Of a stretch of DNA of 64,000 bases, positions 8,732 through 38,289 are shown in pieces. The notes beneath the pieces were generated by a model. That model had not been told where the DNA came from and made no database searches. It saw only the letters and a list, made by a program, of their open reading frames with translations. The DNA comes from Taiwanofungus camphoratus (lineage: Eukaryota; Basidiomycota; Agaricomycetes; Polyporales; Taiwanofungaceae): positions 1,054,001 through 1,118,000 of the forward strand of contig CP021220.1 in assembly GCA_003999685.1 (NCBI GenBank). Reading direction: 5' to 3'. The position numbers were made by a program, and so were the translations under genes. The first letter of the stretch is position 1. Each line of letters starts with the position of its first letter.

Positions 8732-10771
8732 ATGGGGATCGTAGAGAAGGTGGCTATCGGTGCTTGTGTCGCTTTCCACCGGTATTACAGATTAACGGCA
8801 TGTCCTCTCCCAGATCAAGGAAATAGAGGGTAAATAGCGTGAACTGTGGTTGGAATTTATTTCTCGCTTACGAGTATGATCTCATATTAGAGGAGATGGC
8901 GAGAAGTTAGTGATGTGCTCATTGCGGGTATTCCGATGATTCTCAAACTTCGAATAGCCCAGAAAAATAAGGCGAGGACACCGCCTTACCCAGGATGAAC
9001 AGCGAGTTCACGAGCACCCATATCAGGCTACCGAGTATCATCTAGGTCTATTGAAAGCGAAATTGGCACGATATCGCGCGCAGCTTCTCGAGCCGACGAC
9101 GAAGTCAAGCGGCGGCGGTACAGGCTTTGATGTTCAGAAATCCGGTGATGCAAGAGTTGCATTGATAGGGTTCCCTTCCGTTGGAAAGGTGATTGAACAC
9201 TTGTTACACTCGACCTCCAGCAGACTCTGACAATCAGCTAGTCCACTCTATTGAGCAAATGCACTCATACCGTTTCTGAATCTGCTGCGTACGAGTTCAC
9301 CACACTAACTGCAAGTAGGCAATTTCCTTGTAGTTTTGACTTTCCTGACGGAAGTAAAATTGAAAGGCAATTCCTGGTGTTATCGAGTATCAAGGAGCGC
9401 GGGTCCAGCTCCTTGATCTGCCCGGTATCGTTGAGGGCGCCAGCCAAGGGCGTGGGCGAGGCCGGCAGGTGGTTGCAACAGCGAAGACTGCAGATCTCAT
9501 TTTGGTCATGCTAGATGCTACGAAATCGGAGGAGCAACGCCGACTACTAGAAATTGAGTTAGACGCTGTCGGTATTCGCTTGAACAAGAAGAAGCCTGAC
9601 GTCGTCTTCAAGCGGAAAACAACAGGAGGCGTAAGTTTTACGTGATCGAAAGATGCGTCGTCTCACCGTCTATGTTGTCTCTACGTGATGCAGATCACAG
9701 TAAGACTTTTCCTTCATGGAGCAGATGGGTCTTAGTCTTACGTTCTGTAAGCTCAACACGACGGTCAAGCTCACCAAAACCGACGAAAGGACAATTCGGA
9801 CCATCCTGGCGAGCTGTAGGTGTCCTGATATTCGAAACCTTGTACATATACCATTTACTTGCGCTACAGACAAGTTGCACAACTGCGATGTAATGATTCG
9901 TGAAGACGTAGGTGTAGATCCAATTAACCTCGATGAAATTTGCTCAAGAAAGTGCATAGATCACAACTGATGAATTCATTGATGTTCTCATCGGCATGGT
10001 CATTGCTTGATCGGTTCGCTCCGTTAGACTCATTCAGTGATAGGGACTCGAAAATATATTCCTTGCCTTTGTAAGTCCCTCTCAACTGTAGCAAGGTGCT
10101 TGACGTTTCATGACACTCTGCAGATGTTTACAACAAGATTGATGCCATCAGCCTTGAGCAAATGGATAAGCTCGCCCAAGAAGGTCATACTGTGGTAATC
10201 AGCTGCGAGTTGAATTTGAAGTGAGCTCCACATTTTTTGTGCAGACGATAGATAGACATGAAATCCTTCTCAGCCTGGACTATCTTATCGAACGCATGTG
10301 GGACGAGTTAGGTCTCGTCAAGGTGTACACCAAGAAGCGCGGCGCCCATCCAGACCTCACGGATCCAATCTGTTTGCGGAAAGGCGCCACTATCGAGGTG
10401 TGTTAAGTGATAATGTGTGCCCATTTAATTTACGATATGAGTTTCCCAGGGTGTATGTAACGGTATCCATCGATCGCTGGCTACAAATTTCCGATATGCA
10501 CTTGTATGGTGAGTACTCAAGCGCTATATTCGATATTGACGCTGTCCTCATAGTGCTATGCAGGGTAAGCCTATCTCCGCTTGGGAAGATACATTTGCTC
10601 ACTGATGGGCGCGATACGTAAATCTAGGGCAAGTCGTCTAAATTTGCGCCGCATGGGCAGAAAGTAGGTCTGAACCACCTTGTTCAAGACGAGGATGTTG
10701 TATCAAGTAGGTCTGTTGAAACCAGAATCTTCTTGTGTCTCACCTCAAGTTCAACAGTTTTCACGAAGTAA
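8732..10771 (+). CDS. DRG2: DRG2/Rbg2-type developmentally regulated GTP-binding protein
   Basis: Eighteen exons are needed: 8732-8749, 8814-8829, 8891-8905, 8958-8971, 9027-9188, 9242-9310, 9367-9630, 9694-9699, 9752-9815, 9870-9907, 9960-9993, 10044-10070, 10124-10220, 10274-10397, 10450-10508, 10564, 10628-10706 and 10758-10771. The sum is 1101 nt, 366 residues plus stop, the usual DRG2 length. Motifs: MGIVEK start, GFPSVGKST (G1), [11 protein letters not shown] (G3), YNKID (G4) and a C-terminal TGS domain starting near HPDLTDP. DRG2 rather than DRG1 is indicated by MARTQKNKATEYHLG and ISCELNLNLDYL. In yeast Rbg2 partners with Gir2 and acts on ribosomes during stress; that function here is inferred. 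Introns 8972-9026, 9311-9366 and 9994-10043 begin with GC rather than GT. Exon 16 is one nucleotide. Both oddities are described under findings. Confidence 0.93.
8972..9026 (+). other. GC-AG intron in DRG2 (GCGAGG donor)
   Basis: The coding sequence reads ..QKNK up to 8971 and resumes ATEYHLG at 9027. The 55-nt gap starts with GC and ends with CAG. The only GT inside lies after an in-frame stop, so no GT donor can rescue the frame. Confidence 0.75.
9311..9366 (+). other. GC-AG intron in DRG2 (GCAAGT donor)
   Basis: The frame [15 protein letters not shown], near-invariant in DRG proteins, needs the intron to start exactly at GCAAGT, which is the classic GC-AG donor, and to end AAAG at 9366 (56 nt). 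Using the overlapping GTAGGC at 9315 shifts the frame. Confidence 0.85.
9994..10043 (+). other. Probable GC-AG intron in DRG2 (GCATGG donor)
   Basis: DRG2 needs DVLIG followed by [15 protein letters not shown]. This join is in frame only if the intron runs 9994-10043 (50 nt), GC to TAG. The nearby GTCATT donor gives the wrong phase. Confidence 0.65.
10564..10564 (+). other. Predicted single-nucleotide exon of DRG2
   Basis: Upstream exon ends GCA CTT GTA TG at 10508, then GTGAGT..GCAG (10509-10563, 55 nt), one G, GTAAGC..CTAG (10565-10627, 63 nt), then GGC AAG TCG. Including the lone G restores the TGG codon of the family motif ALVWG, and brings the whole CDS to a multiple of three. Confidence 0.65.
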
Positions 10772-11371: not shown

Positions 11372-12865
11372 ATGGGCTCTTTAGACTTTCATTCACCTGC
11401 CTTCACGAACCCTGTAGAGCTCATTTTCTTGGGCACTGGCACATCGTCTAGTCTACCGCATGTGGATTGTTTGACTGCACCTCCTGGCAGGAAACCTTGC
11501 CGTACATGTCTTTCGACCCTCACGCCCGAGGGGAAAAAGAATATAAGGGTATGCGACCAATTTATGAGTTGCACATTTCTAATAGCAAGCCTCATAACGA
11601 GAAGCGTAATACTTCTGTGGCGATGAGATTGCGTGGGCAGAATGCGGAGAATGTGTATGTACACTACTTCTAGGCGGTACGCCACTTTGGAAGCTTGATC
11701 GCGATTGTTATCCTAGAACTGTCGTAATAGACGTGGGGAAGAGCTTCCAAGCAGCCGCTGTAGAATGGTTCCCCAAGTATGGCCTCCGCCGCATCGATGC
11801 CGTACTAATCACTCACGCACATGCTGATGGTATGTGGAGAGCTTGATGTCTATGGTTTGCACCCCATATTAAACATCCGGTTCTTTAGCTATGAATGGAT
11901 TGGATGATTTGCGAGGTTAGTGTTTCTGAATGAAGATCCAGTTGTAATTTCTAATGTTATAACGCAATACAGGGTGGACATTGCATGGCGCGATACAGCC
12001 CTACGTGGATCTCTACGTATCGCGTGAGACATTCAAAGAGGTTCAGCGTGCCTTCCCCTATTTAGTGTCAAAGGAATTCGCTTCTGGCGGCGGTGATGTA
12101 AACACATTCTCCCATCAGTCCTGCAGTCAAGCTAAGATGTGACGTAATACAGGTACCTGAGTTCAAGTGGCATATCATCGAGGATCGGGTACCCTTTGAG
12201 ATCGGTGATACTGGAATTCAGATCACTCCATTTGCAGGTACGTTGCTGCATAATCGCCAATTTCATTCCCTCACCAAGCACACCAAGTTCATCATGGACG
12301 CATTTTTTCAATCCCACCGCCGCTCGATTCCGCTATAGGCCCTTGTCAAAGCTTCACCGCGACAAAAAACATGGCCACCTTGAGCACGCCAGGAACTCCA
12401 CGGACTGTGGTGCCAAGCAAGCAGATACACCCTTACCTCTGCTTCGGTTTTGTCATTCAAGACGCTGTTGTTTACATATCTGATGTATCGCACATCCCGG
12501 AAGATGTGTGGGCTCTACTCCAGTCAACGTGGAAAGTCCCACCCGTTCTCGTTCTTGACTGCCTACGCGTACAAAAACACACTTCACATCTCAGCGTCTC
12601 AGAATCTTTGGAAGTTGCAAGACGCATGGACGCTCAGCGAACCTATTTGCTTGGATTCAGCCACGAAATGTCGCATGATGACTATGTTGCAGTGGGTGAG
12701 GCAGCCGGGGGTAAGGAGCTCTCTGAAACCGAGCTTGCTTTGCTCAAGCAACGAGATCTGGAGTGCGCATACAAGGGACGACAAATCTGGGTCAGGCCGG
12801 CATTTGACGGGCTGAGGGTTTGCGTTTCCGATGATGGAACAGTTCGGGATGAAAGCTATGCATGA
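11372..12865 (+). CDS. Metallo-beta-lactamase-fold hydrolase, PhnP-like
   Basis: Start chosen at ATG 11372 ([11 protein letters not shown]), just before the first MBL strand [13 protein letters not shown]. Further motifs after splicing: the HxHxD metal site [16 protein letters not shown] (about 11806-11920, split by an intron), VHHGR after the intron ending near 12288, and [10 protein letters not shown] (about 12470-12510), which supplies the acidic bridging ligand. The C-terminal part after 12288 is one continuous exon ending VRDESYA at 12865. Related bacterial and fungal proteins are phosphodiesterases or of unknown substrate, so the exact reaction is open. All exon joins I checked are GT..AG with 50-60-nt introns. 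Confidence 0.85.
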
Positions 12866-37122: not shown

Positions 37123-38289
37123 CTAAAACTCCTCGACGTCTATCGTGAATCCACATTCATGGCAGACCTGTTTTCCAACACCACCGTCGCCCTTCTCTAC
37201 AACTCCGAAGACATGCTTATGCTCGCGGTCCTTTCTCTTCTGCCACACTGTCTCTCTCGTTCGCCTCCGTAGCTCCTTCAGGCCTTCTTCAAATTTCTTG
37301 TTCTTCTTTTTCTTCTTCTCGGCTACCCTTCGCTCGTACTCTACATCGAGCGCTTCTGGTGATCCCCACTTCTTCCATGCGAAATCCTCTACTTGATATC
37401 TCAGAAAGAGCATCATGTTGGCGAATGTCGACTTGTGAGGGTTAGCCTTGAGTAAATGAGGCATCACTTCCTGGTCTCGAAGCTCGGCTACAAGAACGTG
37501 TTAGGAATGAAATTCATTGTGATCCGAGATCCATACCATCGGTCAGGAGGTAATCCTACAGAGAATGGATCAGGACATGCCATCCTTTGAAAATGGCCAG
37601 ACTTGCCTCCTTGCATTCAGCTTTGGTCAGAAGACTATACTTCTCGGGCTTCTCGTTTTTGCATTTGTTGCATACAAGACAACCGAAGACCTTCTTGTAT
37701 GTTTGATCTATGTCAACAGCTTGACATTCATTACATTTGGGGTTGAGATTGGGATCAAGAAAAATAGCTTTATGGATTGTCAATGATTTCTGTATCAGTG
37801 CTTCAAACAAGAGCCATACTCACGGGGGTCGAGGTTCTGCATGGCTCTCTGCCTCTCACGCTCCTTCTCCCTTGCTCTCAATTCATCATCTACTTCCTTT
37901 CCATCCTCAACAAGGAACCCACCCTTGGAGTTGACCATTCTTGATAAATCATACTCAAAATATTTTCCCAGACGAGTATCACGTTTCAGCGAGGGCTTTG
38001 GGGCTGTAGGAGACGTGGATGTTGCTGGGACGACGCCAAGCGGACGTTTGTTATATACATTTGGTGTTGATGAGCTTGAGGCATCTTGCTCTCTTTCACG
38101 TTGTCTAGCCTTCGCTACCAGAGCATGAGTATTCCGTCCTCACAGCAAGCTGGGGTGGGGGAGCTGCGCACCTCTCAGTCGATTTATCTCAATTCGCTTG
38201 ACTTGTTCAGGGGTTGGGGTTAAGTTCAAGCCCTCTGGCACGCGAGGAGGTGGAGTTATGGGTACGCTGCTAGGTCCTGCTTCTGCCAT
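37123..38289 (-). CDS. RAD14: DNA repair protein Rad14/XPA
   Basis: Start ATG 38289 ([20 protein letters not shown]), a disordered N-terminus with a basic helix ([17 protein letters not shown]) and Pro-rich part. Then [28 protein letters not shown], the XPA C-x2-C..C-x2-C zinc finger, followed by [19 protein letters not shown]. The DNA-binding domain continues with [39 protein letters not shown] and a Lys-rich helix ([15 protein letters not shown]). It ends in an unusual second Cys motif, [17 protein letters not shown] verifies damage and scaffolds the nucleotide excision repair complex. Convergent order with the thioesterase stop to start is tail-to-head on the same strand. Confidence 0.93.

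Follow-up and report, generated by a model that had tools for sequence, protein, structure and literature searches.

The DRG2 gene and the single base at 10564

The stretch analysed here (the window) comprises 64,000 nucleotides of the Taiwanofungus camphoratus genome, positions 1,054,001 to 1,118,000 of contig CP021220.1 (C1), in an assembly of 33.2 Mb in 15 contigs. The Pfam family DUF6533, characteristic of mushroom-forming basidiomycetes, has 60 matches in this genome and none in 14 prokaryote control genomes, which suggests an agaricomycete. The window carries a gene for DRG2, a conserved ribosome-associated GTPase, within which one G at position 10564 is predicted to be an exon of its own between two short introns. 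Hand splicing of this gene gave 18 exons and 17 introns of 50-64 nt with the reading frame intact, and a coding sequence of 1101 nt including the stop codon. The top sequence match in PDB was yeast Rbg2 (7nrc_So; 472.4 bits, E 7.9e-141, residues 2-364), with Rbg1 trailing at 403.4 bits, and the protein contains the Pfam domains MMR_HSR1, MMR_HSR1_Xtn and C-terminal TGS. By this domain set and by its closer match to Rbg2 than to Rbg1, the gene product is a DRG2/Rbg2 GTPase; its paralogue DRG1 sits on contig C2. The gene and its junction are laid out below (window coordinates; slashes mark splice sites; percentiles refer to the 163 introns predicted in 20 other genes).

8732 to 10771, plus strand: DRG2 (Rbg2-type) GTPase gene, 18 exons, 366 amino acids (hand-spliced model, PDB, Pfam, ab initio model)
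10450 to 10508, plus strand: exon 15, ending in ...GTA TG (hand model)
10509 to 10563, plus strand: intron 15, 55 nt, ATG/GTGAGT...CTATGCAG/G; donor at the 90th and acceptor at the 49th percentile
10536 to 10540, plus strand: candidate branch site TTGAC, its A 24 nt upstream of the end of intron 15 (loose-motif scan)
10564, plus strand: predicted exon 16, a single G, third base of the Trp codon TG/G in ALVWG (hand model, ab initio model, enumeration)
10565 to 10627, plus strand: intron 16, 63 nt, AGG/GTAAGC...AAATCTAG/G; donor at the 67th and acceptor at the 13th percentile
10602 to 10606, plus strand: candidate branch site CTGAT, its A 22 nt upstream of the end of intron 16 (loose-motif scan)
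10628 to 10706, plus strand: exon 17, starting GGC AAG TCG, with a donor-like G/GCAAGT (hand model)

The initial annotation had proposed a one-nucleotide exon at this place, and its bases and coordinates from 10508 to 10628 proved exact (55-nt intron, G at 10564, 63-nt intron, GGCAAG from 10628). The base has AG directly upstream and GT directly downstream, both flanking introns are of viable length, and it is needed for the reading frame and for a conserved residue. It completes the Trp codon in FRYALVWGKSSKF, where A would give a stop codon and C or T would give Cys, and joining 10508 straight to 10628 with the G omitted shifts the frame. Both introns had been described as normal in length for this genome, which agrees with the 163 predicted introns (48-94 nt, median 56). 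The branch motif used here is a loose one, being present in 80/163 introns against 36 in reversed controls. The spliced DRG2 junction with the G included is predicted to read TATGGGGCAAG and TATGGGGCAAGTC.

The same structure was obtained with a purpose-written Viterbi gene finder, which employs codon usage, donor and acceptor matrices and intron lengths but no homology. Its starting matrices were taken from 15 DRG2 introns, the two in question being left out, and were re-estimated over four rounds from the predictions for the 20 other genes only (DRG1, three RPB2-like, two EF2/EF-G-like, nine CCT/Hsp60 and five actin-like genes; 162 and finally 163 introns). The gene finder yielded the identical 18 exons of DRG2, including the one-nucleotide exon and three GC-AG introns, the final matrices being in agreement, and still picked the one-nucleotide exon when GC donors were forbidden. 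Across both strands of the 64-kb window, no exon apart from that at 10564 was called with a length of 3 nt or below. The 18-exon, 1101-nt, 366-residue model proposed in the initial annotation was thus reproduced by hand and ab initio, except that the three GC-AG introns (8972-9026, 9311-9366 and 9994-10043; 3/17) had gone unmentioned. This intron type accounted for 5 of the 163 introns predicted in the 20 other genes and for 5/108 in the rest of the window.

Alternative models of the junction

Enumeration between 10450 and 10706, covering 206 introns and 3564 intron pairs, left 372 open in-frame peptides, and hence the earlier statement that a 124-nt intron is the sole alternative could not be maintained for models with up to two introns. 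The one-nucleotide model ranked first of the 372 by homology (130.4, next 119.2), measured as the mean alignment score to Rbg2, Rbg1, the DRG1 of this fungus and two archaeal DRGs, and also first on the splice score alone (1.9, next -1.2). None of eight DRG homologues compared (Rbg2, Rbg1, own DRG1 and five archaeal proteins) has a gap at the junction residues, while the Trp is present in DRG1 and 3/5 archaeal DRGs and is replaced by Tyr in Rbg1. The motif ALVWG had been called near-invariant; from the gap-free alignment and the partial conservation of Trp, this is correct for its length, which is invariant in these eight sequences, but Trp is common rather than invariant.

The 124-nt intron would extend from GTATGG at 10504 to 10627 and leave a protein without Val-Trp, the predicted junction of this form being GCACTTGGCAAG. 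It is a single GT-AG intron that keeps the frame, yet its donor, CTT/GTATGG, lies at the 3rd percentile of the 163 donors, its length exceeds their 48-94 nt range, and the whole-model score is 22.6 against 33.9 for the version with the one-nucleotide exon. The TGS domain scores 55.2 bits with Val-Trp deleted and 67.8 bits with the one-nucleotide exon, a loss of 12.6 bits, and the Val-Trp pair is missing from none of the eight aligned homologues. With donor percentile, model score, TGS bits and homologues in agreement, the preference of the initial annotation for the one-nucleotide exon over this splice appears well founded, and we hold the 124-nt intron to be very improbable. A single TG-AG intron was rejected, its score being far under those of all 163 donors, and a single GT-TA intron was set aside as non-canonical.

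It is also conceivable that a G of the junction is missing from the assembly (at 10508/10509 or 10627-10629), in which case the true gene would have just one intron there, of about 119 nt. One extra G would indeed yield ALVWG with one intron, and the base calls at the junction are known from the assembly alone. Moreover, simulations in other genes, in which an intron was lengthened and an adjacent base removed, led to a one-nucleotide exon call inside the intron in 8/161 and 22/966 trials, whereas intron lengthening alone and base deletion alone gave such calls in 0/161 each. However, none of the 966 simulations matched the strength of the DRG2 case, and a lost base further requires a rare intron length, introns of at least 110 nt numbering 0/163 in the training genes, 1/108 elsewhere in the window and 3/608 in a wider sample described below. 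It also requires an internal AG-G-GT with good sites by chance. In 20000 trials per null with a 119-nt stretch, dinucleotide shuffles contained an internal AG-N-GT whose two sites both exceed the 5th percentile in 0.44% of cases, genomic windows in 0.64% and intron-interior mosaics in none; the strength seen in DRG2 was reached in 0.02%, 0.095% and none, respectively. Shuffled intron interiors gave no one-nucleotide exon among 1571 introns called; an internal exon hardly fits into introns of about 56 nt, and the power of this control is therefore low. Since the same arrangement is found in two further genes (see below), several independent assembly errors would be needed. Taken together, the data are better accounted for by the one-nucleotide exon than by the loss of a junction base, which we consider very unlikely, although slightly less so than the 124-nt splice.

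The adjoining introns, for which sequential removal is expected, recall the stwintrons, which are numerous in some fungi (PMC9024468, PMC12403724), and the pair might alternatively be a stwintron or a recursive (zero-exon) intron instead of two introns around a true exon. In a stwintron the internal intron interrupts the donor, branch site or acceptor of the other. Here neither intron breaks a core splice signal of its neighbour, as GTAAGC at 10565 and CAG at 10561-10563 are both complete before any splicing, and each intron has its own candidate branch site. A zero-length exon has AG directly followed by GT, but exactly one base, a G needed for the frame, is retained between the two DRG2 introns. 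This explanation is the least probable of those considered, close to negligible.

Several points weigh against a one-nucleotide exon in DRG2. The splicing of this gene is itself deduced from genomic sequence alone, and one more G at the junction would make the exon unnecessary. Intron 16 has a weak acceptor (13th percentile), and the gene model requires three GC-AG introns, of which that at 9994 has a very poor donor (TCG/GCATGG, 1st percentile), although homology nonetheless demands that junction. The introns used for training are predictions, some of the gene models show evident flaws (ACT4, part of DRG1 and others), and the first training round drew on 15 introns of DRG2 itself, the two in question excluded. 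ACT4, poorly modelled with 156 residues, was excluded from simulations and comparisons, yet its two introns count among the 163; the ab initio model of DRG1 retains one unspliced stretch. The gene finder also produces false one-nucleotide exons, both in the base-deletion simulations mentioned above and at locus L053 described below, and the shuffled-interior control adds little. Rival splice products would read CACTTGGCAAGTC or TATGGGCAAGTC. With these points weighed, we estimate a probability of about 0.92 that DRG2 truly has a one-nucleotide coding exon, G 10564, between two ordinary short introns.

DRG2 is rich in microexons, with the 6-nt exon 8 (9694 to 9699, plus strand, ATCACA; hand and ab initio models) and four leading exons of 14-18 nt (8732-8971). 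Directly downstream of it, a Lactamase_B_2 (metallo-beta-lactamase-fold) gene is predicted at 11506-12338 (plus strand), and an XPA/Rad14-like gene is predicted at 37123-37938 (minus strand) of the window.

Further one-nucleotide exons in the genome

The gene finder was applied to a sample of 329,357 bases, consisting of the window and additional loci, in which 608 introns and 507 internal exons were called (the 3-kb locus L045 falls within the window and is hence counted twice). Of the exons called, five did not exceed 3 nt: four had a length of 1 nt and one of 3 nt, with none of 2 nt. Besides that of DRG2, two of the one-nucleotide calls were retained:

Locus L063, position 991 (reverse-complement coordinates), minus strand: one-nucleotide exon G between introns 939-990 (52 nt) and 992-1061 (70 nt)
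Locus L086, position 1506, plus strand: one-nucleotide exon G between introns 1413-1505 (93 nt) and 1507-1559 (53 nt)

The L063 exon lies inside a Gly codon of LEGYGMTE in an AMP-binding (acyl-CoA synthetase-like) enzyme (Pfam AMP-binding, 200.9 bits), the three G of this codon coming from three exons. The PDB alignments shown for it read LDGYGSTE, VDGYGSTE and HDGYGSTE and are gap-free there, and the one-nucleotide model ranked first of 196 open models on homology and on splice score; the predicted spliced junction is GAAGGGTACGG. In L086, which encodes a SNF2 helicase (SNF2-rel_dom, 169.5 bits), the exon falls inside a Gly codon of the Walker A motif DDMGLGKT. Two alignments were shown, both to nearly the same protein and both with DDMGLGKT, and among 450 open models only the one-nucleotide model, first on splice score, retains MGLGKT; its predicted spliced junction is TTGGGTAAAACG. 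The loose branch motif is absent from the first L063 intron and from the second L086 intron.

The remaining two short calls were discarded. The one-nucleotide call at L053 was judged spurious, because continuing through the acceptor GTGCAG gives LTPED-LGFLFR, which we take to be a Rad16-type C-terminus. The 3-nt exon call at L088 was not trusted, as it leaves the protein without a segment that presumably belongs to its dehydrogenase family.

The sample includes 66 loci fetched around AGGGT donor patterns (30/54 sites, 16/16 sites, and 20 of 72 sites that exclude DRG2's own). One-nucleotide exons were called at the searched AGGGT site in 2/66 loci, L053 and L086, and one set of 20 loci added none. 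The L063 exon is not at the pattern that fetched its locus. As L086 was fetched by the search for such sites, only L063 informs on frequency, and this one case in 608 called introns of 329 kb gives a rough and very wide estimate.

Splicing, origin and known systems

The two short introns of DRG2 (55 and 63 nt), one base apart and each complete with a donor, an acceptor and a candidate branch site of its own, would each be recognized across the intron, a mode (intron definition) argued for the pairing of short introns in Ascomycota (PMC6616335). Under intron definition no machinery must span the one-nucleotide exon. The acceptor of intron 15 and the donor of intron 16 overlap too tightly for two spliceosomes, and the introns are thus probably removed one after the other. 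After prior loss of intron 15 the donor of intron 16 would become TGG/GTAAGC (31st percentile), and the acceptor score of intron 15 is unchanged if intron 16 is removed first; usable sites being left whichever intron leaves first, both removal orders are possible. The product, GTA TG/G/GGC, would restore ALVWG and the 366-residue protein. That the RNA is spliced in this way, with the introns leaving in turn and in whichever order, is inferred.

As to the origin of the arrangement, the paired introns were no more alike than shuffles in DRG2, L063 and L086, and comparison of the second intron with the flanking exons gave no longer likeness (lowest shuffle fractions 0.09 and 0.13). Over about 8 bases the start of the second intron resembles the start of the next exon in all three genes, a likeness reached by 0.6-6% of ordinary introns over 6-8 bases and, more weakly, by 1-28% at 10-12 bases. 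Where the exon downstream of the second intron begins (window 10628, L063 1062 in the reverse complement, L086 1560), the sequence is donor-like, G/GCAAGT, GTACGG and GTAAAA, with donor scores of 3.66, 4.51 and 1.03, scores of 0 or above being found at 9.9% of 161 ordinary exon starts; the context G/G/G is common to all three cases. These donor-like starts, noted post hoc as was the short likeness, hint that a donor-like codon pair acquired a second intron next to one already present; as a hint of the same kind, they fit a lost base rescued by a cryptic AGGGT, as proposed by Nelson and Syed (PMC12940212). A genome search with 10398-10640, in which common words are skipped, matched only the query itself at E up to 1, without introner-like spread. 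The intron is not shared with DRG1, the nearest intron of which (ab initio model) lies in the Tyr codon of MKYAIVWG. We lean towards the view that one-nucleotide exons recur as a class in this intron-dense genome, here in three unrelated genes with AG/G/GT between short introns and a conserved codon rebuilt in each, that the rough rate would correspond to tens to a few hundred genome-wide, and that they arise through gain or recruitment of a second intron at a distance of one base from an established one, in many cases where the exon itself resembles a donor (such as GGTAAR).

Single-nucleotide exons were already said in the initial annotation to be on record for plants, in accordance with the reports on APC11 and VPS55 (PMC4674806, PMC8831610). 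As described there, these resemble the DRG2 case in being single-base coding exons needed for the frame with canonical flanking sites, and were tested in protoplasts, by RNA-seq and by RT-PCR; they differ in the longer intronic stretch (422 nt in APC11), and the base of the APC11 exon is A instead of G. The novelty expected of a fungal case was anticipated in the literature, by single-base exons in snoRNA host transcripts of the Candida parapsilosis group in 2016 (PMC5033589) and by Fusarium CYP621A in 2026 (PMC12940212). The latter resembles DRG2 as a fungal protein-coding gene in which a G exon within AG/G/GT rebuilds an invariant motif (PKG). Its apparent intron exceeds twice the median length (139 nt in F. 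graminearum), and 18 SRA reads back the exon; the number of genes is 20 in the abstract and 24 in the discussion of that report. CYP621A represents P450 orthologues of one ascomycete genus, whereas DRG2 is a universal GTPase in a basidiomycete, accompanied by two unrelated genes. The Candida hosts are non-coding, with no reading frame at stake, unlike DRG2. One of their transcripts with a one-base exon is reported to reach one outcome by two splicing routes, but what distinguishes these routes is which of introns 1 and 2 goes first, and the one-base exon sits between introns 2 and 3. Stwintrons of the [D1,2] type share with the DRG2 pair two short introns at one place, consecutive splicing and fungal intron definition (PMC9024468, PMC6616335, PMC5639578), but there the internal intron splits the external donor, whereas both DRG2 introns are complete with one exonic base between them. 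Other one-nucleotide cases in the literature are mitochondrial, in placozoans, and mitochondrial group II, in fungi. A search of titles and abstract openings, with many journals outside its coverage, found no basidiomycete one-nucleotide exon. As far as these searches go, the kind is already known, and the gene, the phylum and the recurrence within one agaricomycete genome are new.

The predicted exons support the view that a single base can serve as an exon under intron definition, even in so conserved a gene as DRG2 and within a Walker A motif. Predictors that bar very short exons would cut such genes short or drop conserved residues from them and, given DRG2 and the two other genes, annotation is likely to misread genes of this type. 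A genome with several cases would offer a natural test set for how the spliceosome deals with an overlapping acceptor and donor, and for the gain of introns beside existing ones.
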